IMG/VR virus record: IMGVR_UViG_3300033997_000243
Span: 248,001 to 312,000 of that record
Origin: a virus
DNA: 64,000 nt
Strand: one strand, 5' to 3'
Shown here: piece after piece, positions 3,321-30,572 of the stretch
How positions within the stretch are numbered: the first letter of the stretch is position 1
How the letters are laid out: each line of letters opens with the position of its first letter
Position numbers and translations under genes: made by a program
Notes under the pieces: generated by a model
Seen by the model: the letters and a program-made list of their open reading frames with translations, nothing else
Told to the model about the DNA's origin: nothing
The model's database searches: none

Positions 3321-5248
3321 TTAACTACTCCAAGAAGCCGTTGCATTTCTCTTTGCGTTGGCTTTAAATTTGTCATTGTTTCATGCGTTAACAATGGTGC
3401 ATTGCCATTCTTACTCATAGCAACTAAGGCTTTTGTAATCTTGGCATTTATCATCTTGTTTTTCGCAGTCTGATTAAATACATGCTTTTTCTTACCGCTA
3501 TGATCGTGAGTATATAACTCGCTGCCTTCACCAAAATCGTGACGTAAAAGATTTTGTGAAGCACCGCCCAGAATATTACTGAATCCGCGTGGCTGTGCAG
3601 TTACTTTATCAAGATAGCGATCTGGATTGAAATAACGATCAGAGCTTGAAGAACTGAAAGATCCCATTCCTCCGCCACCGCCTTCACCACCACCTTCGGC
3701 AGCAGCATATTTAGCGGTCATATCGGCAACACGTTTTTTGTAATCAAGAAGTTGACGTTGAATAGCAAAATCTTCATCTTGATTTAATAACAGCTGATCC
3801 AAGTTAAATCCACCAGCAGCAGCCATCATTCGTATTGGAACTGGAATTCCAGCAGCAGTCATACGATCAAGAATTTCCATATAAGATTGATCTTGCTCAG
3901 GCTTTAAACTTTTTGCCCAATGTACATTTGGAATTAAAAGTTTTGAACCATCTTGCATTAAACGTAAGCGTTCTTCTGTAGTTCCAGACATCAAGCCTTC
4001 ACGTTTAACAATCTTACCTTTACGAATTGTATTACCGTGCATCATAGAAACTAACGGAAATACTTTATCGTAGAAAATGCAACGAGTTTGCATATCACGA
4101 TATGCTCTCATTGTTTCAGTGAAAACAGTCATTGAGCCTTCCATTGTTTGATAACTTGCGTCACCACTCAAGAAAGCTTCACTTATTCCAAGCGCTCTCA
4201 TTTTTGCTGGAGTTGTTTGATCCCAAATGTCAGTAACTTTCCAAAAGTCACCACCTGGTCTTAACTCGCTAACGCTAATACCTAAACGTGTTGCGACAAC
4301 AGCACCTATAGGATCAGCATCAGCATCAAGAAATAAATCAGTTGCTTGTTCGTAATCTTGTGGTGTAGGTTCCCAACCTTCTTCACCTAACATTAAGTGA
4401 AGTATGGCTCGTTGTCTACGTCCACTTTCAATCAGTGTTCCGCGATATAAATTTTTCTCAATCAACCAAAGTGGAAGCACTCGTTTAAAGTAACTAACAC
4501 CTTCACCATAAGAGAAAGTTTTACGTGGAACATACAAAGTACCTACTGGATCTAATTCAATTTGATCGTTGAGTAGTTTGTTAAAAAATTCTATACCAAG
4601 ACTTTGACGTATTTGCTCTATGCGTTTTGAAGGCAAACCCAAAGTACGTTTCATATCAGCATCAAGCTGCAAGTACATTATTGGATCTTGACCAAATAAT
4701 GGCAAAGAGTGTACGGTAAGGTTTTCATATTTGTGACACATCAAATCAATGAATTGCTTTTTCTGGCTGTTGTACAAAATAGTTGCAGTGAATGCGCCAG
4801 TAACTTGATGGTCAATACTAATACGAGGCATTGCTGTACGCAGATTCAAGAGTTCAACTACTTCTCTGTATTGATCTAAATATTTGTCCGAAGCTCCGGC
4901 CAAACTAAATTCAGAAAAAGGAAGCGTTGAGTATAAATCTGCACAAGATCCACAAACAGGATCGTGCCAGTACATATCACGATAAACTCTGAACAGTTGC
5001 TGATCTTTTAAATCACTGTCCATACCTTCTAATAATAAAGAGGTATCTAAGTTTACGTCTAAACTACTCATACGTGCGCCAGCTGAAGCGTTACTTTCAG
5101 ATCTGAAGCCTTGTTGTTCGGATCGTGTTTTCTTTTTTTCTGCCTCAGCAGCTTTGCGAACACTAACACGATCTTTAGATGACGTACCTAACCCTTCTTG
5201 ATCTCGACTTCGAGAAGTGGAAGGAATTGTTTTCTTAAAACTGAACAT
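3317..5248 (-). CDS. Portal (portal vertex) protein, T4 gp20-like
   Basis: A 643-residue protein, close in size to myovirus portals, which form the dodecameric DNA gate at one capsid vertex. Residues about 85-450 show the portal pattern: a YRDMYWHDPVCGSCADLYS segment, a long alpha/beta wing region with LDPVGTLYVPRK, and a region rich in GRRQRAILHLMLGEEGWEPT-type helices. The first 60 residues are basic and Ser-rich. A Gly-rich linker (about residues 525-540) precedes the C-terminal barrel region. Terminase lies about 1 kb upstream, which supports the call. GGAG precedes the ATG, and a CTGTAAATAC late-promoter-like site lies 26 nt before it. Confidence 0.85.
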   Translation of the reverse strand: MFSFKKTIPSTSRSRDQEGLGTSSKDRVSVRKAAEAEKKKTRSEQQGFRSESNASAGARMSSLDVNLDTSLLLEGMDSDLKDQQLFRVYRDMYWHDPVCGSCADLYSTLPFSEFSLAGASDKYLDQYREVVELLNLRTAMPRISIDHQVTGAFTATILYNSQKKQFIDLMCHKYENLTVHSLPLFGQDPIMYLQLDADMKRTLGLPSKRIEQIRQSLGIEFFNKLLNDQIELDPVGTLYVPRKTFSYGEGVSYFKRVLPLWLIEKNLYRGTLIESGRRQRAILHLMLGEEGWEPTPQDYEQATDLFLDADADPIGAVVATRLGISVSELRPGGDFWKVTDIWDQTTPAKMRALGISEAFLSGDASYQTMEGSMTVFTETMRAYRDMQTRCIFYDKVFPLVSMMHGNTIRKGKIVKREGLMSGTTEERLRLMQDGSKLLIPNVHWAKSLKPEQDQSYMEILDRMTAAGIPVPIRMMAAAGGFNLDQLLLNQDEDFAIQRQLLDYKKRVADMTAKYAAAEGGGEGGGGGMGSFSSSSSDRYFNPDRYLDKVTAQPRGFSNILGGASQNLLRHDFGEGSELYTHDHSGKKKHVFNQTAKNKMINAKITKALVAMSKNGNAPLLTHETMTNLKPTQREMQRLLGVVK

Positions 5249-13066: not shown

Positions 13067-14152
13067 TTAGTCTGCCATATCGCCAAGTTCAGTTTTGATC
13101 TTACCGCCTTTAGGACTTCGTTTCTTACCAGAGTTTTTCGTTTCGGCCTGAGCCTCTGCCAATTCCAGTTCCAATTTTTCAAGATAAGCTGTTGACAGAT
13201 GTTGTCTTAAGTCATCGATGTCATCGCTTTCTTTAATATCACGAGGTATACGAATTTTGTTCTTTTTAGCAAACTTCAGAAGTTGCGCTTCTTCCATTTC
13301 CTGAATATCTTCAATCGTGGTTTCACGCTTGTAATCAAGTTCATCCAGTTCGTAATGATCTTCATCCGTTTCTTTATGAGCTTTTGCATAGCCACGGTCA
13401 ATATCACGAGCAATATCAACAAGGCTGTAAACTTGCTGATCAGAACTTTCGCGTTTAATTTTGTTGCGCTTAGCCAACGATCCTATGTCATCAATGTAAC
13501 CCATGACTCCATTGGTATTCAATTTTAATTCAAATGGAAGTTCAAGAGCTTTTACATTTTTAGCGGTCGGTCTGTCCAACTTGGGATCTACAACACGACC
13601 TTTGAATTCCATCTGACGGCGGAAAATAGAAAACTGAGAAACAGTAAATATATTCTTCTCTTTTCCTAAATTTTGGAAAGTCAGTACAATCTTCCCATCA
13701 TCACTACACACACGCACATAATCTTTATCAGCTGAAAGAATACGTGCTGTCATGAAATTCGATAAATAATCTGAAGCCAAAGTTCCACGGAAACGAACAT
13801 AAACTTTTTGCAAGAATGTATAACCTTGCTTGCGAGTAATATGTTCGTTTAAAATAGCTGCACCAAAAAGTCGTAACTGTCCATTATCGAATTCACGCAT
13901 AATATCGGCAAGCTCATAAAGTGAACTGCCATTTTTCTCAATGCTCTCGGCCAGAGCCACACTGTTGGGTTTAAAATTTTCACAGCTCGAAGAGTATTCA
14001 AAGCGACCTTGTTTAATGCAAGGCGTATCATCACCAGCAATCAACCGCTCTCGTGTGAGTCCAATGCACTCACCACAAGTTAGTTTTTCTTCTGTTATGA
14101 CTTTTATCTTTATCTGCGCTTTGTTTACTGATGTCTGTCTTTTTGTTGTCAT
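13067..14152 (-). CDS. Hypothetical protein with Cys-rich N-terminus and SAP-like C-terminus
   Basis: A 361-residue protein. Near the N-terminus CGEC, CIKQGRF and CENF form a possible four-Cys zinc site. The middle is a mixed alpha/beta domain. About residues 290-325 carry an AQLLKFAKKNKIRIP...DDLRQHL repeat that closely matches the SAP-like repeats in the protein at 22067. The last 40 residues are basic. These features suggest nucleic-acid binding. AAAGGAT precedes the ATG, and the gene overlaps the HNH gene by 83 nt. Confidence 0.75.
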   Translation of the reverse strand: MTTKRQTSVNKAQIKIKVITEEKLTCGECIGLTRERLIAGDDTPCIKQGRFEYSSSCENFKPNSVALAESIEKNGSSLYELADIMREFDNGQLRLFGAAILNEHITRKQGYTFLQKVYVRFRGTLASDYLSNFMTARILSADKDYVRVCSDDGKIVLTFQNLGKEKNIFTVSQFSIFRRQMEFKGRVVDPKLDRPTAKNVKALELPFELKLNTNGVMGYIDDIGSLAKRNKIKRESSDQQVYSLVDIARDIDRGYAKAHKETDEDHYELDELDYKRETTIEDIQEMEEAQLLKFAKKNKIRIPRDIKESDDIDDLRQHLSTAYLEKLELELAEAQAETKNSGKKRSPKGGKIKTELGDMAD

Positions 14153-14621
14153 TTTTTAATCCTTTGGATCTCAACGTGTGATTGATACAATATAAGATCG
14201 TCTGCTCCATATTGGTTATCCCCGGAAGATCTTTTTTGAGTAACTCTAATCCTTGCCGAGTTGCTGGATCGGCATGTACCATAGGAAGTAAAGTCATTTT
14301 AGCATTGGAAGAAACTGGAGGACTCAATAATGCCTTGACCAAAATTTCTAACCAAGTTTTAGCTCTAAGTTCTGTCTCAGGATCTGCCCAAAATTTCCTT
14401 AAGGGTTTTGGGTTTTTAGCACCAATACGTGCAACTATAGCATCTGCGTGAGCATGAAGTGTTGTATGGCAAGCTCCATCAATAGGAATTTGCAAACTAT
14501 CACTACCACCTAACGATCTTGGAATAGTGTGGTGCCAATGTATATTGGCAAACCAGTTCATACAAATACAGCATAACTCACAGCCGTCGGCTCTTTTTAC
14601 CACTGGCAGTTTGTTTTCCAT
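14070..14621 (-). CDS. HNH endonuclease (probably free-standing homing type)
   Basis: A 183-residue protein. CELCCIC (about residues 14-20), HWHHTIPRSLGGSD and CHTTLHAHAD give the Cys pairs, HH and final His of an HNH nuclease. The C-terminal half is unlike any domain I know; its last 30 residues are basic. The gene overlaps the previous gene by 44 nt and the next by 83 nt, as if inserted between two existing genes, which is typical of phage homing endonucleases. TTAGGAG precedes the start. A recombination or packaging role cannot be excluded. Confidence 0.82.
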   Translation of the reverse strand: MENKLPVVKRADGCELCCICMNWFANIHWHHTIPRSLGGSDSLQIPIDGACHTTLHAHADAIVARIGAKNPKPLRKFWADPETELRAKTWLEILVKALLSPPVSSNAKMTLLPMVHADPATRQGLELLKKDLPGITNMEQTILYCINHTLRSKGLKNDNKKTDISKQSADKDKSHNRRKTNLW

Positions 14622-16064: not shown

Positions 16065-17708
16065 TCAGTCTGCTTTTTTCTTGCGCTTCTTCTCAGACTT
16101 TTTAGTGTCTGCGATTGAAGCATTTACCATCCGTACATACTTATTTACAGATTCGGTCAAGGAAGAAGCGATACGAGGATTAGGATCTTTGTGATCGCGT
16201 TTCCATCCTTTAATGTCGGCAGTAGCAATTTTAATCTTGTCCTGTAGCGCTTTCAGTTCAAGTTTTGCCAGCCTACGCATTTTCAATTCCAAAATGAAAG
16301 TAGCTTCATCTTGAGGAATCTTCAATGTTTTTGCAGTGTAAGTATCTGGATCATCTTTGTCCAAAGCTTTTTTCATTACTTCCAAGATTTTATTCTTGTT
16401 GATAACAGCGTAGGACAATACGTTGTATTCCCACAAATCGCGTTCGCGTTTTGCAATAATGTTTTCCAGATAACGCTTTTCCAATTCCACACGATAGCGA
16501 ACCCAGTTTTTAATATAGGTCGCAAAGTTACAGTAAAGGAATTTAGCAGTTCCATCGACGTTGTTTATTGTAAGTCCTAAGTTATAGAACTCACTGCCAG
16601 TCAACATCTTACGAATTTTTTCAGCTAAATCAAAAAGGCCGTCATCTGACATTCCACGTTTTGGTACAACATAATAATATGCACCATAAGGGCCAGCGTT
16701 CGGACGTTTATCACCACAGTCACTTACCCAACGACTAACTTCGGGTAATTCTAAAATCTTATCACGTTTTTTAGCAACGCCATCTTCAGATGCGAAACCG
16801 GGAGAATAAGAAACAATTTCAACGATTTTATTTTTGTAATCAACTTGAACTTTCGGACAATATTTTATTGCCTTTGCTCTACCTGTTTCAATAAAGCTTG
16901 CAAGTTCTTCTGGTGGGCTAACGCAATCAGATCCAAAAGGAGCTTGAATTTTTAAATGCTTTACACAATCAGAAGATTTCAAATCGCCTTTTTCCAATAC
17001 AATTTGAATAAGTTTTGTAACGCCTTCAATTTCAAAAGCAGGATTACAAGCACGAACACCGTAGGCAATACCACCAGCATTTCCAATCAACAGCATTGTT
17101 GGAAGAAGCGAAGGCAAATACAACGGAATTTTTTCGCTGTCATCAAAGTTGTTTATACGCGGAACAACTTCAAGATAACCTTTATCCAAAAGAAAAAGTT
17201 TGCTGTAATCACTCAAACGCGCTTCAGTATAACGCTGAGCTGCCGCCATATCGAGTGGACTGCCAAAATTTCCTCTACCTTGAATAAGTTTTGGAATTGT
17301 ATTGGCTAACGTAACTAATGCACCATACGTTGCAGAGTCACCGTGAGGATGATACTTACCAATTGTATCACCAACAATACGCGCACACTTTTTAAAGTCA
17401 GAACCGAATAAATTCAGCTGAGACATTGCATAAATAATGTGGCGGTGAACTGGCTTTAATCCATCACGGAATTCTGGAACAGCACGATCTTGTACAACGT
17501 ATTCACCGTAATGAGTTAAATTTCTTTTTGCAAAGTTTGCCAAATCTTCTTTGACAATAGTTTTCATCAGTACAGTGGAAGGCAGTTTGAATTGATTAGG
17601 TTCAACAACTGCGGGTAAATTTTTCTTCGACTTTTTATGTTGTTTAATATCTCCCAACTCAGTCTTAGAAACTTTCTTTGTTTTTGCTGGCGGCTTTTTT
17701 GATTTCAT
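16065..17708 (-). CDS. Type IIA DNA topoisomerase A subunit (GyrA/ParC/T4 gp52-like)
   Basis: A 547-residue DNA-cleaving subunit. [26 protein letters not shown] (split by known GyrA landmarks), [23 protein letters not shown] and [10 protein letters not shown] are classic winged-helix motifs; the catalytic Tyr is residue 160 in [11 protein letters not shown]. It ends after the coiled-coil region, without the GyrA C-terminal pinwheel, so it should act like T4 gp52 or ParC rather than introduce supercoils. The first 40 residues are Lys-rich. It lacks a strong ribosome-binding site but is preceded by the repeated early-type promoter at 17749. Confidence 0.93.
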
Positions 17709-18643: not shown

Positions 18644-20626
18644 TTAATCGTTGGAACTTAACCCCAACAATTGCCGTCTGGCAGAGGCATCTTCACCGAC
18701 AACTGATCTGTAAAACGCAAGATCTTCTTGAACTTTACCGTATTCAATTTGAATCAACTTTCTGTTGTTAATATCAAATGCTATGGCTTCAAGTAAATCT
18801 GCATCTGTCTCTCCCCAACCTTTTGCACGGAACACACTTCCCTTCGGAGCATTTTTTGGTAACTTAGCTAAACATTCTTCCATTGTGTTTCCGCTGTAAT
18901 GCACACCATTAACGAGTGCGTTATACAATTGAGCGTCAACAACAAACAAACGACCTTCTTTAATAAAGTCCGGCATAAGTTTATAGAAAAATGCGGTGAT
19001 AAGTACGTTAATGTGAGATCCATCAGCATCAGCATCAGCAAGCAACATTGCAACAGCAACTCGCAGATTCTTTGTACTGAATGTAGGATTATCAGCTTTA
19101 ACATCCAAACTTTTTATGTCAACTCCCAAACTGTTCAGCATATCTTGAATGCGGTCATTTGAAAGTAAGGCACTTAGACTGACGTTCAATGCGTTTGGAA
19201 TTTTACCGCCAAGTTTTAAAACTTCCTGATTAAAACCACGAGCATTTTTGGCAGTACCACCAGCCGAATCGCCTTCGACAAAATACAGCTCACGCTCATG
19301 CGGTTTACAATCTGGAGCTTCATAAAGTTTTATTGGCAGCTTACTTCCACCTTTTTTAACTTCGCTCATGCCTTTCATTGTTTTAGCAAGATCTTCACGG
19401 GAAGCCGCAACATCACTTGCGCGTTTTATAATCTGCTTGGCTAATGTTTTGTTCTTTGCAAAAAAATCGGTTAATGGTTGAGTCAGTAAATCACAAACTT
19501 CGTTATCGATTTTAGATACCAGTTTATCTTTTACCTGACCACTAAATTGAGCGCTGTTCATTTTCCAGTTGATAATAGCAACTGCGCCAACATAAAGATC
19601 TTCTGGCTTAAACTTACCTGCTTTTTTGGGCAGATAGTTTTTCAAAGCTTTTGACATGGCCGCACGGAAACCATTTACATGCGTACCATGATCTATTGTT
19701 GGACTACTATTTACATAACTTCTGAACAGATCACTGTCATAGTGATTAGACCATTGAATAGCAACTTTCAGGCTTGAGCCATCGAACTCGAATGGCTTAC
19801 CCAAAGGCTCTAAATCATGATCAGAAATTATTGAACTGACTACAGCACCCAAACCTTTATCATTGTAGAAAACCTGTTCTTTGTTTGTTTCAAGGTTTAG
19901 GAAACCAATATAAAGCTTGCTATTCATGGTACTCATGAACTTTAAATAATCAGCAAACTTTTGTTCTTCCAAAACAGCTTGGGTATATGTTTTAAGTTTT
20001 GAGGTACGACTAGCATCAACGCTTATCACGCTTTGATCTGGAACCAAGCGAATGATAGTGCCAAGTCGCTTAAACTTTTTCTTGAGAGGTAAAAGATAAC
20101 CAAACTTTTTCTTGAGGAAAGTGTCTGGAACCTTTTTAACCGGACTGGTTTCTTTTCCGCATGAAAAACTTTGGTAGTACCACTGATCTTCACGACAAGT
20201 CCAGACCTCAAGTTCTTTTGATAAAGCATTGACCGCAGAAATACCAACACCGTGCGTACCACCTGAAGTCTGATAAGCTTTTACATCAAATTTTCCGCCA
20301 GCATGAAGTTCAGTAAGAATTACTGTTAATGCGCTTACTTTTTTACCTTCAACTGTTTTCATTCCAACAGGAATACCTTGAGCGCAGTCGGCAAAAACGT
20401 ATTCACTTGTTTTGTTATTAAAGGCTACATAGATTGCGTTGTTGCGTCCAGCTTCGTATTCATCGCGGCTGTTTTCAACAGCTTCTTTGCCCATGCGATA
20501 CATCATTGAATCGCCAAGCTCACCCATGTACATACCAGCGTTTAATCTAACACCAGCTAAACCTTTGTGAACCTGAATACTATCTTCATCATAAGTATTT
20601 GCAGATTTTGCTTTTGCTTTAGCCAT
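18644..20626 (-). CDS. Type IIA DNA topoisomerase B subunit (GyrB/ParE/T4 gp39-like)
   Basis: A 660-residue ATPase subunit. The GHKL ATP site is visible: EAVENSRDEYEAG (the Asn that holds Mg), ADCAQGIPVG, and the lid GGTHGVGISAVNAL. The transducer follows, then the TOPRIM domain with YFVEGDSAGGTAKNAR and MLLADADADGSHI, which bind the catalytic metals with the A subunit. Length fits ParE or phage large subunits. It should pair with the protein at 16065, with which it shares the operon. AAGGAAAG precedes the start. Confidence 0.94.
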   Translation of the reverse strand: MAKAKAKSANTYDEDSIQVHKGLAGVRLNAGMYMGELGDSMMYRMGKEAVENSRDEYEAGRNNAIYVAFNNKTSEYVFADCAQGIPVGMKTVEGKKVSALTVILTELHAGGKFDVKAYQTSGGTHGVGISAVNALSKELEVWTCREDQWYYQSFSCGKETSPVKKVPDTFLKKKFGYLLPLKKKFKRLGTIIRLVPDQSVISVDASRTSKLKTYTQAVLEEQKFADYLKFMSTMNSKLYIGFLNLETNKEQVFYNDKGLGAVVSSIISDHDLEPLGKPFEFDGSSLKVAIQWSNHYDSDLFRSYVNSSPTIDHGTHVNGFRAAMSKALKNYLPKKAGKFKPEDLYVGAVAIINWKMNSAQFSGQVKDKLVSKIDNEVCDLLTQPLTDFFAKNKTLAKQIIKRASDVAASREDLAKTMKGMSEVKKGGSKLPIKLYEAPDCKPHERELYFVEGDSAGGTAKNARGFNQEVLKLGGKIPNALNVSLSALLSNDRIQDMLNSLGVDIKSLDVKADNPTFSTKNLRVAVAMLLADADADGSHINVLITAFFYKLMPDFIKEGRLFVVDAQLYNALVNGVHYSGNTMEECLAKLPKNAPKGSVFRAKGWGETDADLLEAIAFDINNRKLIQIEYGKVQEDLAFYRSVVGEDASARRQLLGLSSND

Positions 20627-21463: not shown

Positions 21464-21488
21464 AAAAAAGCCGCAAGAAGCGGCTTTT
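21464..21488 (-). terminator. Strong bidirectional-type terminator
   Basis: GCCGC / GCGGC stem extended by A/T pairs, with a 5-nt loop; on the minus strand it is followed by six T bases. It lies just after the Lys/Ala-repeat gene and ends the block of acidic and basic proteins. Confidence 0.88.
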
Positions 21489-21510: not shown

Positions 21511-21978
21511 TTATTCAAAATCGAAGTCGTTATTTTTCTTTTTTGTAGAAGGCTTTTTGTCAGCTTTCTTGTCTGACTTGGCCGGAGCTTTTTTGTCAGC
21601 AGACTTTTTATCAGCTGGCTTTTTGTCAACTTTCTTGTCTGACTTGGCCGGAGCTTTTTTGTCAGCAGACTTTTTATCAGCTTTCTTATCCGCTTTGGCC
21701 GGAGCTTTTTTGTCAGCTTTTTTGTCAGCTTTCTTATCCGCTTTGGCCGGAGCTTTCTTATCGGCTACCGGAGCTTTTTTGTCAGCTTTGGCAGGAGCTT
21801 TTGCGGCAGGAGCTGGATTACCTGCTAAAGCTTCGGCTTGCTGTTTTGTAGCGGCAGCAACTGCTTCTGCTTGTTCAGCGGCTTTAACTAAAGCTTCTGC
21901 TTGTTTGCGTAAAGCAGCGGCTTGCTTTGTAGAAGCAGTTGCACTTTTGTTCAGTGCGGAAATAGCTTGTTTACTCAT
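21511..21978 (-). CDS. Histone H1-like Lys/Ala/Asp repeat protein
   Basis: A 155-residue low-complexity protein. Residues 1-55 form an Ala-rich amphipathic helix; residues 56-145 are repeats of the type APAKADKKADKK, with Lys/Ala/Pro composition as in histone H1 C-termini and bacterial HctA-like proteins. It ends NNDFDFE, a tail resembling two other proteins in this window. It probably coats or condenses DNA, or binds an acidic partner such as the poly-Glu proteins next to it. No enzyme motif. AGAGAAA precedes the ATG. Confidence 0.8.
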   Translation of the reverse strand: MSKQAISALNKSATASTKQAAALRKQAEALVKAAEQAEAVAAATKQQAEALAGNPAPAAKAPAKADKKAPVADKKAPAKADKKADKKADKKAPAKADKKADKKSADKKAPAKSDKKVDKKPADKKSADKKAPAKSDKKADKKPSTKKKNNDFDFE

Positions 21979-22008
21979 TTTTCAATTTCTCTTATTGCGA
22001 ATTAAAGG

Positions 22009-22033
22009 AAAGCGATGCAATACACATCGCTTT
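22009..22033 (-). terminator. Hairpin between poly-Glu and Lys-repeat genes
   Basis: A 9-bp stem (AAAGCGATG / CATCGCTTT) with a 7-nt loop. The minus-strand downstream sequence is CCTTTAATT, so only a weak T tract. Possible terminator or attenuator between the two genes. Confidence 0.55.
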
Positions 22034-22066
22034 AAATTTTAAAGAAGGTTAGTTAGAGGTCAGGGA

Positions 22067-22783
22067 TTAATCTTCTTCCCACTCTTCCTCTTCTTCCTCT
22101 TCTTCCTCTTCTTCCTCTTCCTCTTCTTCGTCAGAGGAATAGTTTTCTTCCAGCCACTCACGCAGAGTATCTTCGTTCTTCAGCGCCTTCTTAGGCGGCT
22201 CAAGATCGTTTTCTTTTGCGAAAGCCTTCATTTCTTTTAAATCCATTTCTTCAAAGTCTGGTTCTTCAGACTCTTCTTCCTCTTCTTCCTCTTCTTCGTC
22301 AGAGGAATAGTTTTCTTCCAACCACTCGCGCAGGTCATCTTCGTCTTTCAGAACTTTGGCAGGAACTTCCAGATCATTTTCTTTCACAAACTTTTTCAGT
22401 GCTTTGTGATCCATGTCCTCGAAGTCAGGAGAATCAGATTCTTCTTCCTCTTCTTCCTCTTCCTCTTCGGAATACTGCTCAGCTAAAAACTCGCGCAGGT
22501 CATCTTCATCTTTGATCTTTTTAGGGATCTCGATTTCGTTGTCTTTAGCAAACTTTTTCAGCTGCTTCAGATTCATTTCTTCAAAGTCTGGTTCATCAGA
22601 CTCTTCTTCCTCTTCGACTTCTTCATCCTTTTTGGATTTTTTGCCTTTGGAGGATTTACCGGCAGGAGCGCCTACAGCGGCAACAACGTCATCAGCTTCG
22701 ATAACACCTTCTTCAACACAAACTGTCAGCAATTCCAGTAACGCAGAAGCAACTGTTTTTCCGGCGGTCTTTTTCTTTGACAT
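22067..22783 (-). CDS. Poly-Glu protein with three SAP-like repeats
   Basis: A 238-residue protein. After a short helical N-terminus and a Lys patch it has three copies of an about 35-residue unit, of the form M..K.LKKFAK.N.IE.P.....DEDDLREFL, separated by runs of 10-18 Glu. The unit resembles SAP/HeH DNA-binding helices. The same unit is found once in the protein at 13067. The very acidic linkers could mimic DNA or bind the basic proteins encoded on each side. No catalytic residues. Start follows GGGAAAAT; a palindromic site and CTGTAAATT motif lie upstream. Confidence 0.8.
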   Translation of the reverse strand: MSKKKTAGKTVASALLELLTVCVEEGVIEADDVVAAVGAPAGKSSKGKKSKKDEEVEEEEESDEPDFEEMNLKQLKKFAKDNEIEIPKKIKDEDDLREFLAEQYSEEEEEEEEEESDSPDFEDMDHKALKKFVKENDLEVPAKVLKDEDDLREWLEENYSSDEEEEEEEEESEEPDFEEMDLKEMKAFAKENDLEPPKKALKNEDTLREWLEENYSSDEEEEEEEEEEEEEEEEWEED

Positions 22784-22821
22784 GATATTTTCCCAATGTT
22801 CTACTGTTATAAAAAATTGTT

Positions 22822-22838
22822 TATACCATTTAGGTATA
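22822..22838. promoter_or_regulatory. Operator-like palindrome
   Basis: TATACC-ATTTA-GGTATA, a 6-bp inverted repeat 5 bp apart, sits 40-55 nt before the start at 22783 and just downstream of a CTGTAAATT motif. It could bind a dimeric regulator or form a leader hairpin. Confidence 0.35.
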
Positions 22839-22843
22839 CTAAA

Positions 22844-22854
22844 GAATTTACAGT
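22844..22854 (-). promoter_or_regulatory. Late-promoter-like ACTGTAAATTC
   Basis: Minus-strand ACTGTAAATTC about 60 nt before the poly-Glu gene. It matches the ACTGTAAAT part of the motif seen before the ssDNA-binding protein and sigma genes, but the spacing is longer. Confidence 0.4.
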
Positions 22855-22895
22855 ATTCCCAAAGCAGACTAAACTAAGGGAATACTTGAAAAGAA

Positions 22896-23417
22896 TTACT
22901 CGGCCAGTTCGGTCTGCATTTCAAAGCCGTCAGTATTTGACGTATTAAAAACAGTAACGTCACCAGTGTCCAAATTTGTGATAACATTGGCAGAACCGCG
23001 AGTTTCAACATTGGCACGTTTGATTTCACGAACAACTTCTTGTGACATCACGGTGATTTGAGCGCGTTCACCTACAGCACCAGTGTACATGATTACATCT
23101 TTCGCTGGAAAGATTGAAACTGTTTGCTTGGAAGAACGAGGTTTTGTGTGTGAGAAAACAAAAGATTCACCTTCGATTTTCAGCAAATAACCTTGCAGGT
23201 GTTGGGCAGTGCGTTTCGCAACAATACGAACACGTAATTCCATTTTAGGGTTGTGTTTGCGTAAAGAAATTTTGGAAAGTTTGCTTTCAAACTTATCAAG
23301 CATCGAAGGCTGGCCAGCTTTCTTAACTTTTGTAGCAGGAGCTTTGGCAGGTACTTTACCGGCAGCTTTTACAGGGGCTTTGCCTTTGGTTAAAGGCAGT
23401 TTCTTTTGGTTTGACAT
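22896..23417 (-). CDS. Basic-tailed protein of the nucleoid-like block
   Basis: A 173-residue protein. Residues 1-35 are Lys/Ala/Pro-rich, like the repeat protein at 21511 (KAPVKAAGKVPAKAP). The rest is a probable small beta-rich domain (residues 55-165). A DNA- or RNA-binding tail on a compact domain is a reasonable reading. AAAGGAAAT precedes the ATG; the leader carries an 8-bp stem-loop and a CTGTAAATAC site. Confidence 0.75.
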   Translation of the reverse strand: MSNQKKLPLTKGKAPVKAAGKVPAKAPATKVKKAGQPSMLDKFESKLSKISLRKHNPKMELRVRIVAKRTAQHLQGYLLKIEGESFVFSHTKPRSSKQTVSIFPAKDVIMYTGAVGERAQITVMSQEVVREIKRANVETRGSANVITNLDTGDVTVFNTSNTDGFEMQTELAE

Positions 23418-23473
23418 AGCTATAAATTTCCTTTGCGATTTTAGTCAAAAGCGACAGTTATTACATTATCATC

Positions 23474-23509
23474 GGCAGGTCAGAATTCTAAAATTCCTCC
23501 CGACCTGCC
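23474..23509 (-). promoter_or_regulatory. Leader stem-loop before the basic-tailed gene
   Basis: GGCAGGTC (23474-23481) pairs with GACCTGCC (23502-23509); the loop contains GGGAGGAATTTT on the minus strand. It lies between the CTGTAAATAC site and the start at 23417, so it would be in the 5' untranslated RNA. Confidence 0.45.
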
Positions 23510-23512
23510 TAT

Positions 23513-23523
23513 GTATTTACAGT
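23513..23523 (-). promoter_or_regulatory. Late-promoter-like ACTGTAAATAC
   Basis: Exact ACTGTAAATAC on the minus strand, 96 nt before the start at 23417, directly upstream of the leader stem-loop. Same sequence as at 62383. Confidence 0.5.
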
Positions 23524-23540
23524 TTTAGCAGACCAGCAGC

Positions 23541-25691
23541 TTACTCAATGACAATCATTGAGTTTGCAGACCACGGCAACAGGTAAGAAATTGAATCAAA
23601 ATCAGATAACAGAGTGTGAACAATGTCGGTTTCGACTTCTGACTCAGTTTCTTCTTCTGAATCAATTTCTTCTTCTGTTTCTTCAACTTCTTCGCTTTCG
23701 TACTCTTCATCCAATTCACCATCGAATTCAAATTCAGAGTCCTGCATTTCAGCGGCCTGTTCTGCTTTTTCACGAACATATTCAACTAACTGTTCGCGGC
23801 TATAGTAGCCTGTTTTGTTAAACAGATCAACAACAGCACGAGATTTTAACAGCAGATCTAAATCGGCTGCAAAAGTAACCATGATTTCAATCGACTCTTC
23901 TGTCGCTTCATCAGCAATTGCTTGAGCAGATTTTTTTAGTGCCGTCAGATTTCCGCGCAACTTTTCTGAATCACGGCTACGGCCCAACATTGGGACGTTC
24001 AGAGATACGAAAAAGTTGTACACGATTTCATTTTCAGTATCACCGACTGAAGGTTGAACATTGATAGAAGCTAAATCGCTTAAATCAATACCTTCTGGTA
24101 ATACGTTGTCATCGGTTAAACCGTAGACCAAAGCTTTTGCAACTTTTTGCAGGTTCTCACAAATACCGTAAACGGTTTGATGAACAGCAATTGTTGGGCC
24201 GCAGTAAACGCGCTGTTTCATGTTAAACTCTGCAACCATTTGCGATAATGATTGCATTGGATCTACAAACCAGCCCATATTTTTGTCATCGGTTTCACGA
24301 CGGCGTAACGGATGATTGGCACACATTGCATTTTCACCAATGTAAATTGCGGCCAGTTCTTCCTGATCGATTTCACGAGTTTGCTGTGTGCCAGCCGATA
24401 AAACCAGAATAATGCGAGAAGAAGTTGTAAGTTCAAAGTGCGGAACTTCTGAACCTAAATAATCTACTTCTTCTAAGTGACGAATCACTTCGGCATTCAA
24501 AGCTTCAGCTTCAGCTTCAGCTTGCATTTCTGCTTCGATTTCGGCATCCATTTCAGCCAGTTGTTCTTCGGTGAATTCGATCTGAACACCATCTTCTTCA
24601 TCTTCATCAGAAACATAGTTTTCAGGATCGTCGCGTTCAACTTCTTCGACTTCTTCTTCATGAGTTTCAAAGTCGTCAGTTTCGTCAGAAGTTTCTGATT
24701 CATCTTCGGCTTCTACTTCAGCCAAAGCTTTGTTTTCAGCAACGGCCAGAACGTCAGAATACTGGCCGCGTAATTCTTCACGAATTTCTGAAGTACCTAA
24801 GTCAGAAATTTCTGAAAGCTGATCAGCTGTTAAGCTAATGTGCTGTTCAAAATGAGAAAGCAAGGCTTTGCGATCCATAGAGTCCAGAACTTCCAGAAAT
24901 TTATCTTCGTCACCGTTGGTAGCATGTTCCAGAAGTTCATCAAAATCTGAATCATCAACTTTTTCAGTTCCGGTGATTTCCTGCATAACCTGCGCTGTTG
25001 AAACAGTTTCGTTTTCTGCAAAATCAAATTCGCTCGACTCTTCGGCTTCAAAATCGCTGGCAGTCGGCACAGCATCAACAACTACAGTTGTACTTTCATC
25101 TGAATCTTCAGCATAAATTTTGTTGATTGCAGCAATCAACATTTGACGAGCTTCGTCTGAAGTTTCAGCGTTTTCTGTAGCTTCATCGGCATAACCGCCT
25201 AAGTGAATAAGCAGATCGGCCAGACCATCATCAGAAAGTTGTTCAACTTTTGAAGGGTCTGAGTAATCAACCATCGGATCGAATTCAGCAAAATCAGCTT
25301 CATCAAAAGTAGAGTTTGCCGAATTTCCGCCAGATAAAGCGGCCAACAACGGATCAATTTCGGCACGAAGTTTGTTGCGAGATTCAGCACCGTTTTTAAT
25401 ACCTTTCAACAAAGCTTCCGCATTACCACCTAAATGATTCAACAGATCTTTGTGGCCTTTCAAACTTAACTCTTCCAGATTCACCGGATTGGTGTAATCA
25501 ACAGATGGATTGAATTGCTTTTTCTCTGGAGCAGGAATTTTAACTTCGTTAACGTACATTGCGGTTTCTCCAACATTTGTTTTTGGTTCAGCCACAACAG
25601 GCGCTGAGTTCGGCACTACTTTAGATTGTTGCATAGAAGCAGCGGCAGCTGCACTAACTTTAGGCAACAACTTATGTTTTGGTTTTAGCAT
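23541..25691 (-). CDS. Large acidic protein with internal repeats
   Basis: A 716-residue protein of unknown function. Two copies of a domain are visible: FNPSVDYTNPVNLEELS...LLNHLGG (about 60-120) and FDPMVDYSDPSKVEQLS...LLIHLGG (about 135-195), each about 75 residues. A long Glu/Asp-rich disordered stretch follows (about 205-400), then a probable folded domain (about 410-640) and another acidic stretch before the C-terminus. The first 60 residues are basic and Ala/Pro-rich. It belongs to the acidic/basic gene block. GAGGAC precedes the ATG. Possibly a scaffold or DNA mimic. Confidence 0.75.
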   Translation of the reverse strand: MLKPKHKLLPKVSAAAAASMQQSKVVPNSAPVVAEPKTNVGETAMYVNEVKIPAPEKKQFNPSVDYTNPVNLEELSLKGHKDLLNHLGGNAEALLKGIKNGAESRNKLRAEIDPLLAALSGGNSANSTFDEADFAEFDPMVDYSDPSKVEQLSDDGLADLLIHLGGYADEATENAETSDEARQMLIAAINKIYAEDSDESTTVVVDAVPTASDFEAEESSEFDFAENETVSTAQVMQEITGTEKVDDSDFDELLEHATNGDEDKFLEVLDSMDRKALLSHFEQHISLTADQLSEISDLGTSEIREELRGQYSDVLAVAENKALAEVEAEDESETSDETDDFETHEEEVEEVERDDPENYVSDEDEEDGVQIEFTEEQLAEMDAEIEAEMQAEAEAEALNAEVIRHLEEVDYLGSEVPHFELTTSSRIILVLSAGTQQTREIDQEELAAIYIGENAMCANHPLRRRETDDKNMGWFVDPMQSLSQMVAEFNMKQRVYCGPTIAVHQTVYGICENLQKVAKALVYGLTDDNVLPEGIDLSDLASINVQPSVGDTENEIVYNFFVSLNVPMLGRSRDSEKLRGNLTALKKSAQAIADEATEESIEIMVTFAADLDLLLKSRAVVDLFNKTGYYSREQLVEYVREKAEQAAEMQDSEFEFDGELDEEYESEEVEETEEEIDSEEETESEVETDIVHTLLSDFDSISYLLPWSANSMIVIE

Positions 25692-25699
25692 AATGTCCT

Positions 25700-26977
25700 C
25701 TAGGCTTTTTGCCAGTACATTTTAGGTTTTGAAATTCTCACAACTGGCTGAGTTCCATTTTTGCCCTTTCTGCTTTCGAGACTGGAACTCTGAGCTGTTT
25801 TTGATTCACAACAAACAAAACCCAAACTTTTTAGTTTGCTCATAATCTGAGTGTGTTTAACGCTCGGTGGAGTGCATGTGATCTCATTTGAATTTGAGCA
25901 AAGAAATAAATCTAATGCTTTAAAACAAAATAAATTCACTGGGTCATTTGCTTTCGCAACTTCACGAGCTTTTTTACGCAATTCACGATTGGCTTCTCGC
26001 TTTTCTTCAAAAGCATCAATCAACTTTTTAGCGGCTTCAGCCAAATTAATCTGGCGTCGTGTTGGCCGTTTTATTTGATCGAACTCTGAAAGATAAAGCA
26101 CTGCCTTTGCTTTCTTTTCACGATACTTATCTAAGAATCCAATATATGGACTTTTTCGATCCGCACGTTCACGATAGATCTCAGCTAAACGATCAACATC
26201 GTGAATAATCCATTCATGAATCACCGAAGCATAATCCATTTCAGGATCGTATTCGTTGCGCTCAAGTTTGCCGTAAACAACATAATACTGCTCACTTTTA
26301 CCAAAAGCACCGTCAGGTAAATTCGGTGGAACAATGTTTGAAGCTTGATACGTAAAATCAACAAACTTTTCTTTTTGTTTGGAGTCTACGTAATTCAGAA
26401 AAGCAGAAACTAACTTAGTCTGACCAGCAACTTTTTTATAAACGCAGTACATATCATAAGCGTCAGTTTGAACACGAACAAAACTTTTACCTAAACAAGA
26501 TTTTGCTGGCCCATCTACTATTTTGAACTGAGAAATACTCTTCATCAATTTTAAATAGTGATCAGAAGGAACATAAGTCACACTGCAATCTAAAGCGGAG
26601 CGCATGTGTTCTTTTAAAACTGATCTTAGATCTTTTTTCGTTAATACGGAATCAGGCAACTGAACCGCATCATAACCAGCAACTTCATTCCAAAGCATTT
26701 TATTTATATTGCTTTGGGGCAAAGCTAAACCGCATTCGTAAAGTAATGCAACTTTTTCACAAGCAACATAACTACCACGACAAATTTGATTGTACAAATT
26801 AATAAGGTGCGAACGTGATATACGCAACATGAAATGATGTTCGCTGCTTGCGCTACCTCGCGCTACCCAACGATCACCAGACAAAGGCACAGCAGTAGTA
26901 ATCAAACAATTTGTTAAAGCGTTTGGCGCTTGTTCATGCAAAATGCTTGAATAGATCAACTTTGTGTGCTGATTCAT
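25700..26977 (-). CDS. Hypothetical protein, 425 aa
   Basis: Unknown function. Mixed alpha/beta N-terminal 260 residues; a helical, strongly basic stretch around 285-345 (EEKREANRELRKKAREV) could be a coiled coil or RNA-binding arm. It ends in a basic region. An 8-nt gap separates it from the acidic protein gene downstream. TGGAAAA precedes the start. Confidence 0.75.
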   Translation of the reverse strand: MNQHTKLIYSSILHEQAPNALTNCLITTAVPLSGDRWVARGSASSEHHFMLRISRSHLINLYNQICRGSYVACEKVALLYECGLALPQSNINKMLWNEVAGYDAVQLPDSVLTKKDLRSVLKEHMRSALDCSVTYVPSDHYLKLMKSISQFKIVDGPAKSCLGKSFVRVQTDAYDMYCVYKKVAGQTKLVSAFLNYVDSKQKEKFVDFTYQASNIVPPNLPDGAFGKSEQYYVVYGKLERNEYDPEMDYASVIHEWIIHDVDRLAEIYRERADRKSPYIGFLDKYREKKAKAVLYLSEFDQIKRPTRRQINLAEAAKKLIDAFEEKREANRELRKKAREVAKANDPVNLFCFKALDLFLCSNSNEITCTPPSVKHTQIMSKLKSLGFVCCESKTAQSSSLESRKGKNGTQPVVRISKPKMYWQKA

Positions 26978-26992
26978 AAATTTTCCAGATTA

Positions 26993-27014
26993 GGCGGTAG
27001 GAATTCCTACCGCC
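26993..27014 (-). terminator. Perfect 22-bp palindrome between genes
   Basis: GGCGGTAGGAA / TTCCTACCGCC, fully symmetric, in the gap after the gene at 27070-28536. No T tract follows on the minus strand. It is also a possible binding site for a dimeric protein. Confidence 0.5.
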
Positions 27015-27069
27015 AATTTACTTGGTTAAAGATTCTTCCTCTTCGTCATCTTCCTCTTAAGCTAGAGGA

Positions 27070-28536
27070 TTATTCGCTCTCGAACTCGAAGTCCTCTTCG
27101 CCAGTAGTTTCTTCAGCGTCAACCAACTTTTCAATCAGTAAAGCTTTCAACGCTTTGATTTTACGGAAGTGACGGATGTTCTGCGAAACTTTACCAACTT
27201 TATCGCTGTATTGTTTTGCAATTTCCAGTAAAGAATCGAAGTCGCGGATTTCGTTGATTTCTTCGGCAGTAATGCCTTCCTCAACTTCTTCTTCCTCCTC
27301 TTCCTCTTCTTCAGTTTCTTCAAAGAACAGGCTGACCACGTATTCGATCAGTTCTTCTTTATCCAAACCTTCGATGTAATCAACAGTAGCTTCGTAATCT
27401 TCGCTACCTTCTTCACCTAAATCAACAGCACCAAAGATGAAAGTGCGGATTTCTGATTCAGAGTAATCGGCCAGTGCGTCAGCGGCTTCTTCAGCAGATT
27501 CACAGCCTTCTAAAAGATTTGAATCATCTTCAGATTCTTCTTCCTCTTCTTCGGCTTCGTCCAGCTCGTCCAGTTCATCAACTTCTTCTTCCTCCAGTTC
27601 ATCAACTTCTGTTTCCTCTTCTTCAGAGAAAGGAACAAAGTCTAAACTCTCAAAGTCTTTTGAACCAACATCTTTTGGTTCACCGTTTTCATCTTCCAGA
27701 ATCAAACGAACTGGATCACGTTGCATACCAGCAAAGTAGTAAGTTTTACCATCTTCGTCAACTAAGCGTGAACCGATGACAAACTCTTCCATTTCTTCTT
27801 CGTCCAGTTGCAGTGCGGCAAACACACGTTGAGCAACTTTTGAATTCGCGGCAACCTGACTTTCCCACAGACCTTCTTCAACCAGAGATAAAGTTTCTTC
27901 GCTGAAGTTAAATTCTACAGCTTCTTCCTCTTCTTCCAGTTCTTCCAGTTCTTCTTCCAACTCTTCCTCTTCTTCAGGAATGTCAAAAGTTAAATCTGAC
28001 ATGCAAAGAATAACGGTCGGATCGCCACCTTCTTCTTCGATTTGTGCGCCAGTGTTTACGCTAACGAAATTGTCAAAGCGTTTTGGCAAATGTTCACGCA
28101 GAATTTCTTCAACCGCTGAACGAATTTCACCTGACTGTTCAGTAACATTTTCGATAGTAATGGCATCAACTTCTTCCAGTTCTTCCACAACTTTGGTGGC
28201 AGACTTACGTGCAGGTTTTGTTTCAGCAACTTTTTTGCCAGCTGGTTTTTTGTCGGCTTTGGCCGGAGCTTTTGCTGGAGCTTTTTTGTCGGCTTTGGCC
28301 GGAGCTTTTTTAACTTTTGGCAAAGTCACATAACCAGAACCAACTTTTGCACCGTCAACAGGCTGATCGATTTCTTCAAACTTTTGACCATCACGTACAA
28401 CACAATTTGCGGCAACGCCTTTACGACGACCTTGCAGTTTGTAACCAGTTTTAGTTGTCTCTGTGATAGTGTCACGCGAACCATCTAACAGAGTAATTTT
28501 TTTACCGACTAAAGTTTCATTAGGAGTTACTTTCAT
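27070..28536 (-). CDS. Lys/Ala/Pro plus poly-Glu protein with DFEFESE tail
   Basis: A 488-residue protein combining both features of the block. Residues about 1-70 look like a small beta domain, about 72-115 are Lys/Ala/Pro repeats (KAPAKADKK), and the rest alternates short folded segments with long Glu runs. It ends GEEDFEFESE. I chose the ATG at 28536, which has AAGGAAAG seven bases upstream, over an in-frame start at 28605. A CTGTAAATA site lies 32 nt before the ATG, so it may be expressed late and strongly. Function unknown; DNA organisation or a charge-driven assembly is an inference. Confidence 0.78.
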   Translation of the reverse strand: MKVTPNETLVGKKITLLDGSRDTITETTKTGYKLQGRRKGVAANCVVRDGQKFEEIDQPVDGAKVGSGYVTLPKVKKAPAKADKKAPAKAPAKADKKPAGKKVAETKPARKSATKVVEELEEVDAITIENVTEQSGEIRSAVEEILREHLPKRFDNFVSVNTGAQIEEEGGDPTVILCMSDLTFDIPEEEEELEEELEELEEEEEAVEFNFSEETLSLVEEGLWESQVAANSKVAQRVFAALQLDEEEMEEFVIGSRLVDEDGKTYYFAGMQRDPVRLILEDENGEPKDVGSKDFESLDFVPFSEEEETEVDELEEEEVDELDELDEAEEEEEESEDDSNLLEGCESAEEAADALADYSESEIRTFIFGAVDLGEEGSEDYEATVDYIEGLDKEELIEYVVSLFFEETEEEEEEEEEVEEGITAEEINEIRDFDSLLEIAKQYSDKVGKVSQNIRHFRKIKALKALLIEKLVDAEETTGEEDFEFESE

Positions 28537-28567
28537 TTCAACTTTCCTTACATTGGATTCAAATAAA

Positions 28568-28576
28568 TATTTACAG
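28568..28576 (-). promoter_or_regulatory. Late-promoter-like CTGTAAATA
   Basis: Minus-strand CTGTAAATA, 32 nt before the ATG at 28536. Spacing and sequence match the sites before the portal, ssDNA-binding protein and sigma genes. Confidence 0.5.
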
Positions 28577-28625
28577 AACGGTCGGAGCAGGATTGCCCCA
28601 CACATTAATCAAACAAACTTTTTTG

Positions 28626-29231
28626 TTAGAAACTGATTACAGTATCTGACTCAACGCGAACATCTTTGCCTTTGGCATTTTTACAGATTAAGCGGCAAAC
28701 GCCACCACGCACTGAAACACCGTAAACCAGAAGTTCCTGATCATCTACGAATATCGACTTGTTGAACATTGATAATGCAACGCCGAATTCTTTAGCTTTG
28801 GCTAAATTCGCCTTGAACGAATCTTTAGTTTCGCTCAAACCTGCTTCACGATAAACTTTTCGTAACTCTGTGGATGGAGCAACGAACTGCGCTACCGCTT
28901 GCTTTTTACTTGCTTTGCCAGTCACTGTTTTATTTACAGTTTTGGCAGTACCAGAACCTTTCAGATCAACCAACTTTTCTTTTATCAAAGTTGAAAGTTG
29001 ATCTACGGCAGAAAGAACACGAGTTAATGATTTTGCATCTAAGTTGTCGATGTTGTTTACTTCGATGCCAGCACTTTTTAAAGTTGACCTTACCGCAACA
29101 GGAATACTTGCTTTTGGTTTTTTAACCGGAGTATCTTTTGCAGGAAGTTTAGCACTTGGTTTAACTTTACCAGAAGGTTTTACACTTACTGGAGCTTTGT
29201 TTTCACCTTTCTTTGGAAACTTTTTAATCAT
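28626..29231 (-). CDS. Lys/Pro-rich N-terminal protein of the nucleoid-like block
   Basis: A 201-residue protein. The first 45 residues are Lys/Pro-rich and basic; a helical segment (50-100) follows, and the C-terminal 60 residues look like a small beta domain. The ATG at 29231 has GAGGATC upstream; an in-frame start at 29303 would overlap the TATAAT of the promoter, so it is unlikely. Driven by the tandem promoter modules at 29302 and 29420. Function unknown. Confidence 0.75.
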   Translation of the reverse strand: MIKKFPKKGENKAPVSVKPSGKVKPSAKLPAKDTPVKKPKASIPVAVRSTLKSAGIEVNNIDNLDAKSLTRVLSAVDQLSTLIKEKLVDLKGSGTAKTVNKTVTGKASKKQAVAQFVAPSTELRKVYREAGLSETKDSFKANLAKAKEFGVALSMFNKSIFVDDQELLVYGVSVRGGVCRLICKNAKGKDVRVESDTVISF

Positions 29232-29301: not shown

Positions 29302-29360
29302 ATTATACTAAAAGTGGCCGCTCATAACAACCACTATTTTTGACACACTTTGTTTAGTAA
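29302..29360 (-). promoter_or_regulatory. Early-type promoter module, copy 2
   Basis: Minus strand: GTGTGTCAAAAAT (29336-29348), TTGTTA as -35, 17 bp, TATAAT (29302-29307). It would transcribe the gene starting at 29231 with a leader of about 65 nt. An AGTGG/CCACT inverted repeat lies inside the spacer. Confidence 0.8.
29310..29348. repeat. 39-nt direct repeat, copy A
   Basis: Identical to 29428-29466. It covers the core of the promoter module, from just upstream of TATAAT to the GTGTGTC box. Confidence 0.9.
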
Positions 29361-29419
29361 CAAACTTTTTATCGGGAACGAAACTTCAGACAAACTTTCT
29401 CTGTTGTTTCGATGGTGTA

Positions 29420-29476
29420 ATTATATCAAAAGTGGCCGCTCATAACAACCACTATTTTTGACACACCTCGATCAGT
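29420..29476 (-). promoter_or_regulatory. Early-type promoter module, copy 3 (tandem with copy 2)
   Basis: Same box (29454-29466), TTGTTA, 17 bp, TATAAT (29420-29425). It lies directly after the gene at 29480 and 118 bp upstream of copy 2, with no gene between. The two copies would give two start points for the gene at 28626. Confidence 0.78.
29428..29466. repeat. 39-nt direct repeat, copy B
   Basis: Identical to 29310-29348, 118 bp away. Likely produced by duplication of the promoter module or loss of a gene between two modules. Confidence 0.9.
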
Positions 29477-29795: not shown

Positions 29796-30572
29796 TTATT
29801 CTATATCAATTCCGTTTATAACAGCATCCAGATATTCTTGCATAGAAGATTGACTGGTATAAATACCGTGATCAATGCTTGCACCTTTATCCGGCAGATT
29901 TTCACGAGCGTAACGCTGCAAAGCTGGCAAACTCATTTCCTGAAAATCGACAAAGTTTTCTACAGGTAAATCAGCATCATCTTCTTCCATATCTTCTTCA
30001 TCTTCACGAAGAATACGAACGCTGTAACTGCAATTTGTAAAAAGTTGGCCGTCAACCATTATTGAATTTGGGGTTATAGGTTGAATTTTGAATTCGTCGG
30101 CAAATGAGAATTCAACCCTGTACGGAACGTCAACAACAAAAACGGAAAACTTATCTTTCAAAGAATTAATATGCAGCCCAAGTTTAGGTAACTGAATAAA
30201 CTTTTCAACACGTTTTACCATGCCGTAGTTAAACAGCAAACGTGCATCAGTAACCACACCAAGATCTTCACGAATTTCATAACCTGAATTCATAAAGTCA
30301 GGCGCACGACCTTTTGCAGCTGTTTGTGCTAAAAATTCTACATAAGCATCAACACATTCGCTGGAAACCAAAAGTTTGCATTCCTGAGTAGTGTCGATAA
30401 CAACATGAACAGGTGCTTTGTTTGCGTAGATTGCGTTTCGAGTCAAATACTCAACAACAGCTTTTTGATATTTTGTTGAACGCATTTGTTCAGGAATGGT
30501 TAAACCTTTTTCTTCCGCGAAAGTTAAAAGGTCTGACATACTAGCGTTGTTTAACTCTTGTATACTTTTCAT
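29796..30572 (-). CDS. Hypothetical protein with two weak SAP-like segments
   Basis: A 258-residue protein. Residues 10-45 (MSDLLTFAEEKGLTIPEQ...) and about 210-250 (LPALQRYARENLPDKG...) resemble the SAP-like unit of the proteins at 13067 and 22067. A middle alpha/beta region and an acidic run (residues 190-203) lie between. It may bind DNA. First gene after promoter copy 4. Confidence 0.72.
   Translation of the reverse strand: MKSIQELNNASMSDLLTFAEEKGLTIPEQMRSTKYQKAVVEYLTRNAIYANKAPVHVVIDTTQECKLLVSSECVDAYVEFLAQTAAKGRAPDFMNSGYEIREDLGVVTDARLLFNYGMVKRVEKFIQLPKLGLHINSLKDKFSVFVVDVPYRVEFSFADEFKIQPITPNSIMVDGQLFTNCSYSVRILREDEEDMEEDDADLPVENFVDFQEMSLPALQRYARENLPDKGASIDHGIYTSQSSMQEYLDAVINGIDIE

Follow-up and report, generated by a model that had tools for sequence, protein, structure and literature searches.

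The 319,518-base virus record IMGVR_UViG_3300033997_000243 carries, in the 64,000-base stretch analysed here (bases 248001-312000 of the record, hereafter the window), a block of seven consecutive open reading frames (ORFs) at 21511-29231. All seven are present where an earlier note on this DNA had placed them, lie on the minus strand and are called here families A to G (Table 1); coordinates refer to the window unless marked G000, which denotes the record. The note described the block as opposite-charge, low-complexity proteins that may form phage chromatin or condensates. The low-complexity label does not fit every member, since C is mostly folded and E combines a folded domain with a basic tail.

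Table 1. Coordinates of the seven-gene block, its putative signals and other genes of the record (KAP, Lys/Ala/Pro content; D+E, Asp+Glu content)
Feature	Coordinates	Strand	Description
Family G	21511..21978	-	155 aa, Lys/Ala/Pro-rich basic, net +23, KAP 63%, K 28%
Family F	22067..22783	-	238 aa, polyacidic, 41% D+E, net -66
Family E	22896..23417	-	173 aa, low-confidence basic N terminus, then all-beta domain (residues ~60-172)
Family D	23541..25691	-	716 aa, acidic, 24% D+E, net -119, two N-terminal repeats by eye
Family C	25700..26977	-	425 aa, predicted DNA-ligase adenylation-domain-like fold
Family A	27070..28536	-	acidic; 511-aa ORF form: 29% D+E, net -91
Family B	28626..29231	-	basic, Lys/Pro-rich N terminus; 225-aa ORF form: net +24, pI 10.1
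Promoter-like element (GTGTGTCAAAAATAG...TATAAT), two copies	29302..29476	-	upstream of block
GTGTGTCAAAAA element copies	17796, 29348, 29466, 30680, 31396, 38050, 50064, 51879	-	often inverted repeat, then TATAAT
Terminator-like hairpin	21466..21488		just downstream of G; 9-pair stem, scored on plus strand; T run after it read on minus strand
gyrB	18644-20626		
Topoisomerase II	16065-17708		PHROG match
DNA topoisomerase	13067-14152		phrog_17701, E 1.5e-58
UvsX	57946-60177		PHROG match
SSB	60259-61290		PHROG match
Portal gene	3317-5248	-	same strand as block; 48.6% to PaBG over 545 residues
Head cluster	-178787 to -168683		other strand, ~190 kb from block
Capsid gene	-172777..-171653		

G begins with an Ala-rich segment, carries KAPAKADKK-type repeats and closes with an acidic-aromatic tip, DFDFE. 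It is the most Lys/Ala/Pro-rich protein of the record (63%, against 56% for the next). The recurrence of its repeats in A was correctly noticed before: KAPAK occurs five times in G and three times in A, and the two genes have a 31-nt DNA unit in common (87%). The description "histone-H1-like" holds in composition only, the Pfam Hc1 model (PF07432) being unmatched at E<=1 by G and five G-like relatives. The motif [DE]F[DE]F is found in 6 of the 388 ORFs of the record, three of which belong to the block (G, D and A). Elsewhere, a 125-aa acidic protein at 1507-1884 ends in SEEDDFE, like the acidic-aromatic tips of the block, and a 246-aa protein distant from the block (G000 13649-14389) has APAGKKP repeats, a pI of 11 and a KAP of 56%.

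In F, three modules of ~40 residues, SAP/Rho_N-like by eye, are separated by Glu runs. The earlier note had seen SAP-like repeats here and in the topoisomerase at 13067; by eye there are indeed three in the former and one in the latter, but none of the Pfam models for SAP, HeH or LEM gave a match above its cut-off, the best related ones being Rho_N (18.0 bits vs 24.9; E 0.0029 in F) and Ish1 (15.5 vs 26.6). A 258-aa protein at 29796-30572 has a SAP/Rho_N-like module at each end by eye, with Rho_N below cut-off. By eye, the repeats of these three proteins resemble the helix-extended-helix of SAP, HeH and Rho_N, whereas their Pfam matches all fall short of gathering cut-offs. F also matches phrog_3281, annotated as endonuclease VII, in three stretches (E 3.6e-15), a match common to it and the 13067 topoisomerase, which we read as a common helical module and not an enzyme.

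A consists of a conserved N-terminal domain of ~75 aa, a Lys/Ala/Pro linker and Glu-rich segments, ends in EEDFEFESE and matches phrog_33433 (E 1.5e-14). Its start is more likely the ATG at 28536 than that at 28605, because the resulting MKVTPNETL... aligns with relatives. The start of B is more likely at 29231 (MIKKF...) than at 29303, because the latter ATG sits at the TATAAT of a promoter-like element. Homology among E, the N-terminal domain of A and C, or between G and E, found no support.

From 28626 to 21511 the net charge per residue is +0.11, -0.18, +0.04, -0.17, +0.08, -0.28 and +0.15, with strictly alternating signs. Its absolute value averages 0.143 for the block, compared with 0.038 for the 388 ORFs that reach 80 aa in the whole 319.5-kb record. 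The block is the most charged run of seven genes in the record, and a fraction of 0.00025 of 20,000 gene-order shuffles reach its value anywhere, in a test made after the fact, its width of seven having been taken from the earlier note. Three of the record's six most acidic proteins lie in the block. Outside it, SSB has its own mixed Lys/Asp/Glu low-complexity tail, with KLKKKK at the C terminus.

The same promoter-like element stands ahead of the block and of the topoisomerase II gene. The form GTGTGTCAAAAA...TATAAT, a pattern drawn from the window copies, occurs at 11 places in the record, 8 of them in the window, all on the minus strand; a 17-base core of it gives 7 window matches vs 0.37 expected.

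Counterparts of A, C, D, E, F and G occur in the same order in the annotated regions of phages NCTB, fHe-Yen9-02, Alexandra, JA29 and PaBG. The gyrB of the window is closest to those of Phage NCTB (49.8%), Dickeya phage JA29 (46.3%) and Yersinia phage fHe-Yen9-02 (44.3%). In the accessible text of the PaBG paper (PMC7412058), NCTB, JA29, AD1, Alexandra, Lu11 and PaBG form the "Lupandier group", while a 2021 survey of 224 jumbo phages (PMC7824862, accessible portion) places NCTB, Lu11 and PaBG in subgroup 2.2. The phage collection contains no near-identical DNA. By BLAST, E pairs with all five phages (E 2e-8 to 2e-12), C strongly with NCTB (2e-20) and at 0.02 with PaBG, A with NCTB, fHe-Yen9-02, Alexandra and JA29 (31-38% identity over 71-76 N-terminal aa), and G with three phages over its first 32-52 residues (E 6e-4 to 0.03). 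Identity to the window protein in alignments is 26-29% for E, 17-27% for C and 20-26% for A. B has no BLAST counterpart in the five phages, and in JA29, Alexandra and fHe-Yen9-02 a basic protein with an A-type N-terminal domain adjoins A in its place.

The sign of the charge is the same in all six phages, the window included, for each of these families: E (+11 to +14), G (+23 to +31) and C (+9 to +29) are basic, F (-66 to -100), A (-59 to -118) and D (-31 to -201) acidic. The five named counterparts alone give +26 to +31 for G, with a KAP of 53-61%, and -89 to -100 for F, a family in which D+E content is 41-67%. PaBG has a second Lys/Ala/Pro-rich basic protein outside its block, gp136 (L006:23647-24072; 141 aa, KAP 55%, pI 10.6). 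One to three small genes separate the block end from gyrB in NCTB, fHe-Yen9-02, Alexandra, JA29 and the window, and the PaBG block adjoins sigma factor, SSB and UvsX genes.

A scan of viral contigs anchored on gyrB, in which the best 80 of 147 relatives were kept, comprised 42 gyrB-close loci (gyrB at least 40% identical to that of the window) and 38 gyrB-distant ones (at most 34%). With family profiles built from six sequences, E was matched in 26 of the 42 close loci and in none of the 38 distant ones, 31 of which have more than 4 kb upstream and are real tests (the other 7 have less than 2.5 kb); L008 duplicates the window, L012 and L026 probably correspond to JA29 and Alexandra, and these matches are therefore not independent. 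The other profiles matched in 24 (C), 20 (D), 20 (G) and 7 (A) of the 80 loci; most loci end before A, and two of the seven A matches (L012, L014) are B-like proteins with the same domain. A single-protein search of viral contigs with E found one relative, 100% identical.

In two loci, L042 and L043, a single ORF has a basic N-terminal part, continues into the E beta domain and ends in a long polyacidic tail (E values of the E profile 2.2e-16 and 1.6e-17, respectively). Next come a Lys/Arg/Ala-rich ORF and gyrB, in that order, with an extra 86-aa ORF between in L042. Similar basic-beta-acidic proteins are seen by eye in L035 and L037, where the E profile match is not significant. The fusion of the E beta domain to a polyacidic tail is what most strongly suggests that the two kinds of charge serve a common function.

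By composition, a G-like ORF is present in 29 of the 42 gyrB-close loci, including L009, L018 and L032, in which the profile missed it; acid-free or nearly acid-free overlapping "G" ORFs in L009, L011, L014, L043, L045 and L074 were left uncounted as frame artefacts. The last 12 residues contain F[DE]F in 23 of these 29 loci (DFDFE, FEFELD, DFDFEME and similar), while the proteins of L034 and L037 end in DDDDSFTLG(N) and those of L035, L042, L044 and L076 otherwise. Because the tip is kept while the repeats before it vary, the F-[DE]-F tip is probably a docking motif for a partner protein. By analogy with the tails of T4 polymerase and SSB, a sliding-clamp- or SSB-tail-like role of the tip is conceivable.

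Structures were predicted with AlphaFold2 (AF2) for E and C. The E model has a mean predicted local distance difference test score (pLDDT) of 76, the beta domain being mostly above 90 and the basic N terminus of low confidence, and its strand order suggests two small barrels. Weak structure neighbours include the barrels of EF-P, NusA, S1 and RuvA, which we take to be of the nucleic-acid-binding type. The C model (pLDDT 76.6, predicted template modelling score 0.69) has as its top VIA-align match chain 9i5i_E of the heterodimeric ligase of phage PR1 (Z 10.4, 162 residues aligned, root-mean-square deviation (rmsd) 3.9, 13% identity). All 13 rows with Z of 8.1-10.4 are DNA ligases, and the next row is USP28 at 8.0. 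A Foldseek search with the C model gave a best E of 0.020 and none <=0.001, and sequence searches of the PDB with C and E returned nothing convincing.

C thus resembles the adenylation domain of DNA ligases (PR1 9i5i/9hu3 and the NAD+ ligases) in predicted fold, but differs from it in having no sequence match and no conserved motif I lysine. With the motif placed by eye, KxDG is replaced by VQTDAY in the window, in a column unconserved over 19 sequences. A nearby lysine persists in several relatives (enterobacterial phages, KVPDG; L010, KYAG), and the loss may therefore not be general. Judged from the predicted fold, C is probably a ligase-fold protein that is a pseudoenzyme in this phage. What the earlier note called a 425-residue unknown can now be described as mostly folded and ligase-like in prediction, although sequence comparison gives no support for kinship with ligases.

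We tentatively favour the interpretation that the block may well be a conserved module of proteins that handle phage DNA inside the infected cell and are not virion parts. It adjoins gyrB and topoisomerase II, and the topoisomerase, UvsX and SSB genes lie in the same window. The proposal of the earlier note is partly supported: the block is a real module kept in related phages, with charge signs kept in six phages and the E-acid fusions in two loci, while the resemblance to histone H1 is one of composition. The proteins would act between replication and packaging. G would most likely use its Lys/Ala/Pro arm to coat and bridge double-stranded DNA (dsDNA), much as linker histones or the Hc1 of chlamydiae do, and its F-[DE]-F tip would likely dock on a partner. 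F, together with A and D, would most likely serve as a soluble chaperone or counter-ion that limits over-tight binding of G and E and loads and unloads both, as prothymosin does for histone H1. E, with its predicted small beta barrels and basic tail, and C, with its ligase-like and apparently non-catalytic fold, are likely nucleic-acid-binding architectural parts.

Several observations weigh against this interpretation. The net charges are unbalanced, the acidic genes summing to -276 and the basic ones to +78 (per copy). The counterparts of D and F were assigned by order and composition, with no BLAST match to the window copies, and the PaBG block lies ~8-10 kb downstream of the gyrase genes. 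Sixteen of the 42 gyrB-close loci give no E match and, with L020, L031 and L038 (less than 1.3 kb upstream) and L036 (taken as PaBG) set aside, 12 of them retain the flank, wholly or in large part. Since many positive loci come from isolates that are close relatives of one another, the counts are not independent. G-like ORFs are located downstream of gyrB in L034, L035, L037 and L076. The structure neighbours of E are weak (best Z 5.0, rmsd 2.4, 52 residues, spanning residues 69-126 only), and Foldseek with the E model gave a best E of 0.11 and none <=0.001. For C, hhalign against a single E. coli LigA sequence finds nothing (probability 0.3), and PF01653 at E<=1 occurs in the record only at G000:54825-55448, in a separate ligase.

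An alternative is that the block encodes internal virion proteins packaged with the genome, of the phiKZ inner-body or T4 internal type, or a prohead core lost on maturation. The portal gene lies 16-26 kb off on the same strand, the annotation of fHe-Yen9-02 places terminase and portal genes downstream of gyrase, and five of the six phiKZ inner-body genes form one cluster (PMC13282480, accessible part). Like the phiKZ and T4 proteins, those of the block come from clustered genes and are phage proteins thought to meet DNA. They differ in lying apart from the head genes and in their absence from the virion proteins identified in PaBG. Table 1 of the PaBG paper (PMC7412058), as far as it was accessible, assigns virion bands to gp 202, 215, 240, 213, 76, 257, 94, 191, 83, 261, 80, 81, 214 and 263, and the six PaBG counterparts match none of these 14 by number or mass, every difference exceeding 500 Da; the list comprises Coomassie-visible bands, among which strongly acidic proteins and small Lys-rich ones may go unseen, and concerns PaBG and not this phage. 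As a check of masses, gp76, 80, 81 and 83 fall within 36 Da of the listed values, and gp94 of the paper is GenBank gp093 by mass, so the PaBG numbering is not one-to-one everywhere. PaBG gp119 (18,873 Da), near but outside the block, is within 36 Da of the band assigned to gp263. The earlier note had named detection as virion structural proteins with no DNA or partner binding as what would overturn its proposal; within the limits of the PaBG Coomassie list, the block proteins were not detected as such. The accessible text of a paper on Dickeya jumbo phages (PMC6143709) contains no mass spectrometry.

The head cluster (G000 69213-74469) also holds charged genes of its own, two basic (+68, +22) and one acidic (785 aa, -185), the latter located two genes from that for the capsid and related to the "ATPase" gp82 of PaBG; in PaBG, gp83 is basic (net +36) and a virion protein on the same list. 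This charged trio is a possible prohead core. Since the capsid cluster elsewhere has acidic and basic genes of its own, a role of the block as head scaffold or core is disfavoured, and, unlike T4-type prohead core genes, the block is not next to the major capsid gene. On balance we regard packaging with the genome, or a core lost on maturation, as unlikely.

A host-takeover module, in which the acidic proteins would be DNA mimics titrating host nucleoid proteins or restriction enzymes while the basic ones compact or silence host DNA, seems distinctly unlikely. Acidic DNA mimics are a known phage strategy, and the Asp+Glu content of F would suit one. Hc1 lowers protein and DNA synthesis in E. 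coli according to the accessible text of PMC12619734. Against this, Pfam at E<=1 lists no mimic family for any of the acidic proteins A, D and F, the block stays together in the neighbourhood of replication genes, and such a module leaves C and the E-acid-tail fusion unexplained. Just as doubtful, in our view, is the stronger claim of the earlier note, a liquid charge-driven condensate concentrating phage DNA and replication enzymes. High charge, Glu runs and KAP repeats in G, F and A speak for it, as does the mixed-charge tail of SSB, but charge at the gene level is far from neutral, and a cellular condensate cannot be predicted from composition alone. A role of E, F and C in transcription or on RNA, in which the charged arms would merely keep the proteins soluble, is very improbable, the NusA, ribosomal S1 and EF-P neighbours of E and the Rho_N-like modules of F being matches below cut-offs or at class level, in a gene context of DNA replication and topology and beside a protein, C, that resembles DNA ligases.

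The favoured interpretation, a module handling phage DNA in the infected cell, has parallels in known systems. Like Hc1 and the bacterial H1-like proteins (PF07432), G is small, basic and rich in Lys, Ala and Pro, and its long arm is of low complexity; it differs from them in its acidic-aromatic tip, its lack of a PF07432 match and its place in a multi-gene block with polyacidic partners. Prothymosin alpha acts as a chaperone of histone H1, and a Lys-rich low-complexity G next to a Glu/Asp-rich F recalls that pair by analogy only, F holding helix-like modules as well. A Pfam histone H1-like protein has been described in four complete "moraphage" genomes, with genome compaction suggested (2025, PMC12619734, accessible text). 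For subgroup 2.2, the one "nucleoid" passage in the accessible text of the 2021 survey (PMC7824862) concerns DsbA homologues of GapR predicted to ring dsDNA. The words "histone" and "HEH" are absent from that text, as are "histone", "condensate" and "phase separation" from the accessible text of a 2026 review (PMC13282480). Among the literature matches listed, no paper concerned this gene block, with subscription journals and preprints mostly outside coverage.

A bolder form of this interpretation, which we consider unlikely, is that these jumbo phages assemble a chromatin of their own inside the cell, from an H1-like DNA-bridging protein with an aromatic tip that docks on a partner, a polyacidic chaperone, a small-barrel DNA-binding protein sometimes fused to the acid tail, and a pseudo-ligase, with the genes kept together beside or near gyrase. 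If true, bacterial viruses would have their own equivalent of the linker-histone/prothymosin system, able to form a DNA-rich compartment without a protein shell. The conserved gene set, present in cultured phages, offers defined, testable candidates for how giant phages in which no nucleus-like shell is known compact and handle over 200 kb of DNA during replication.

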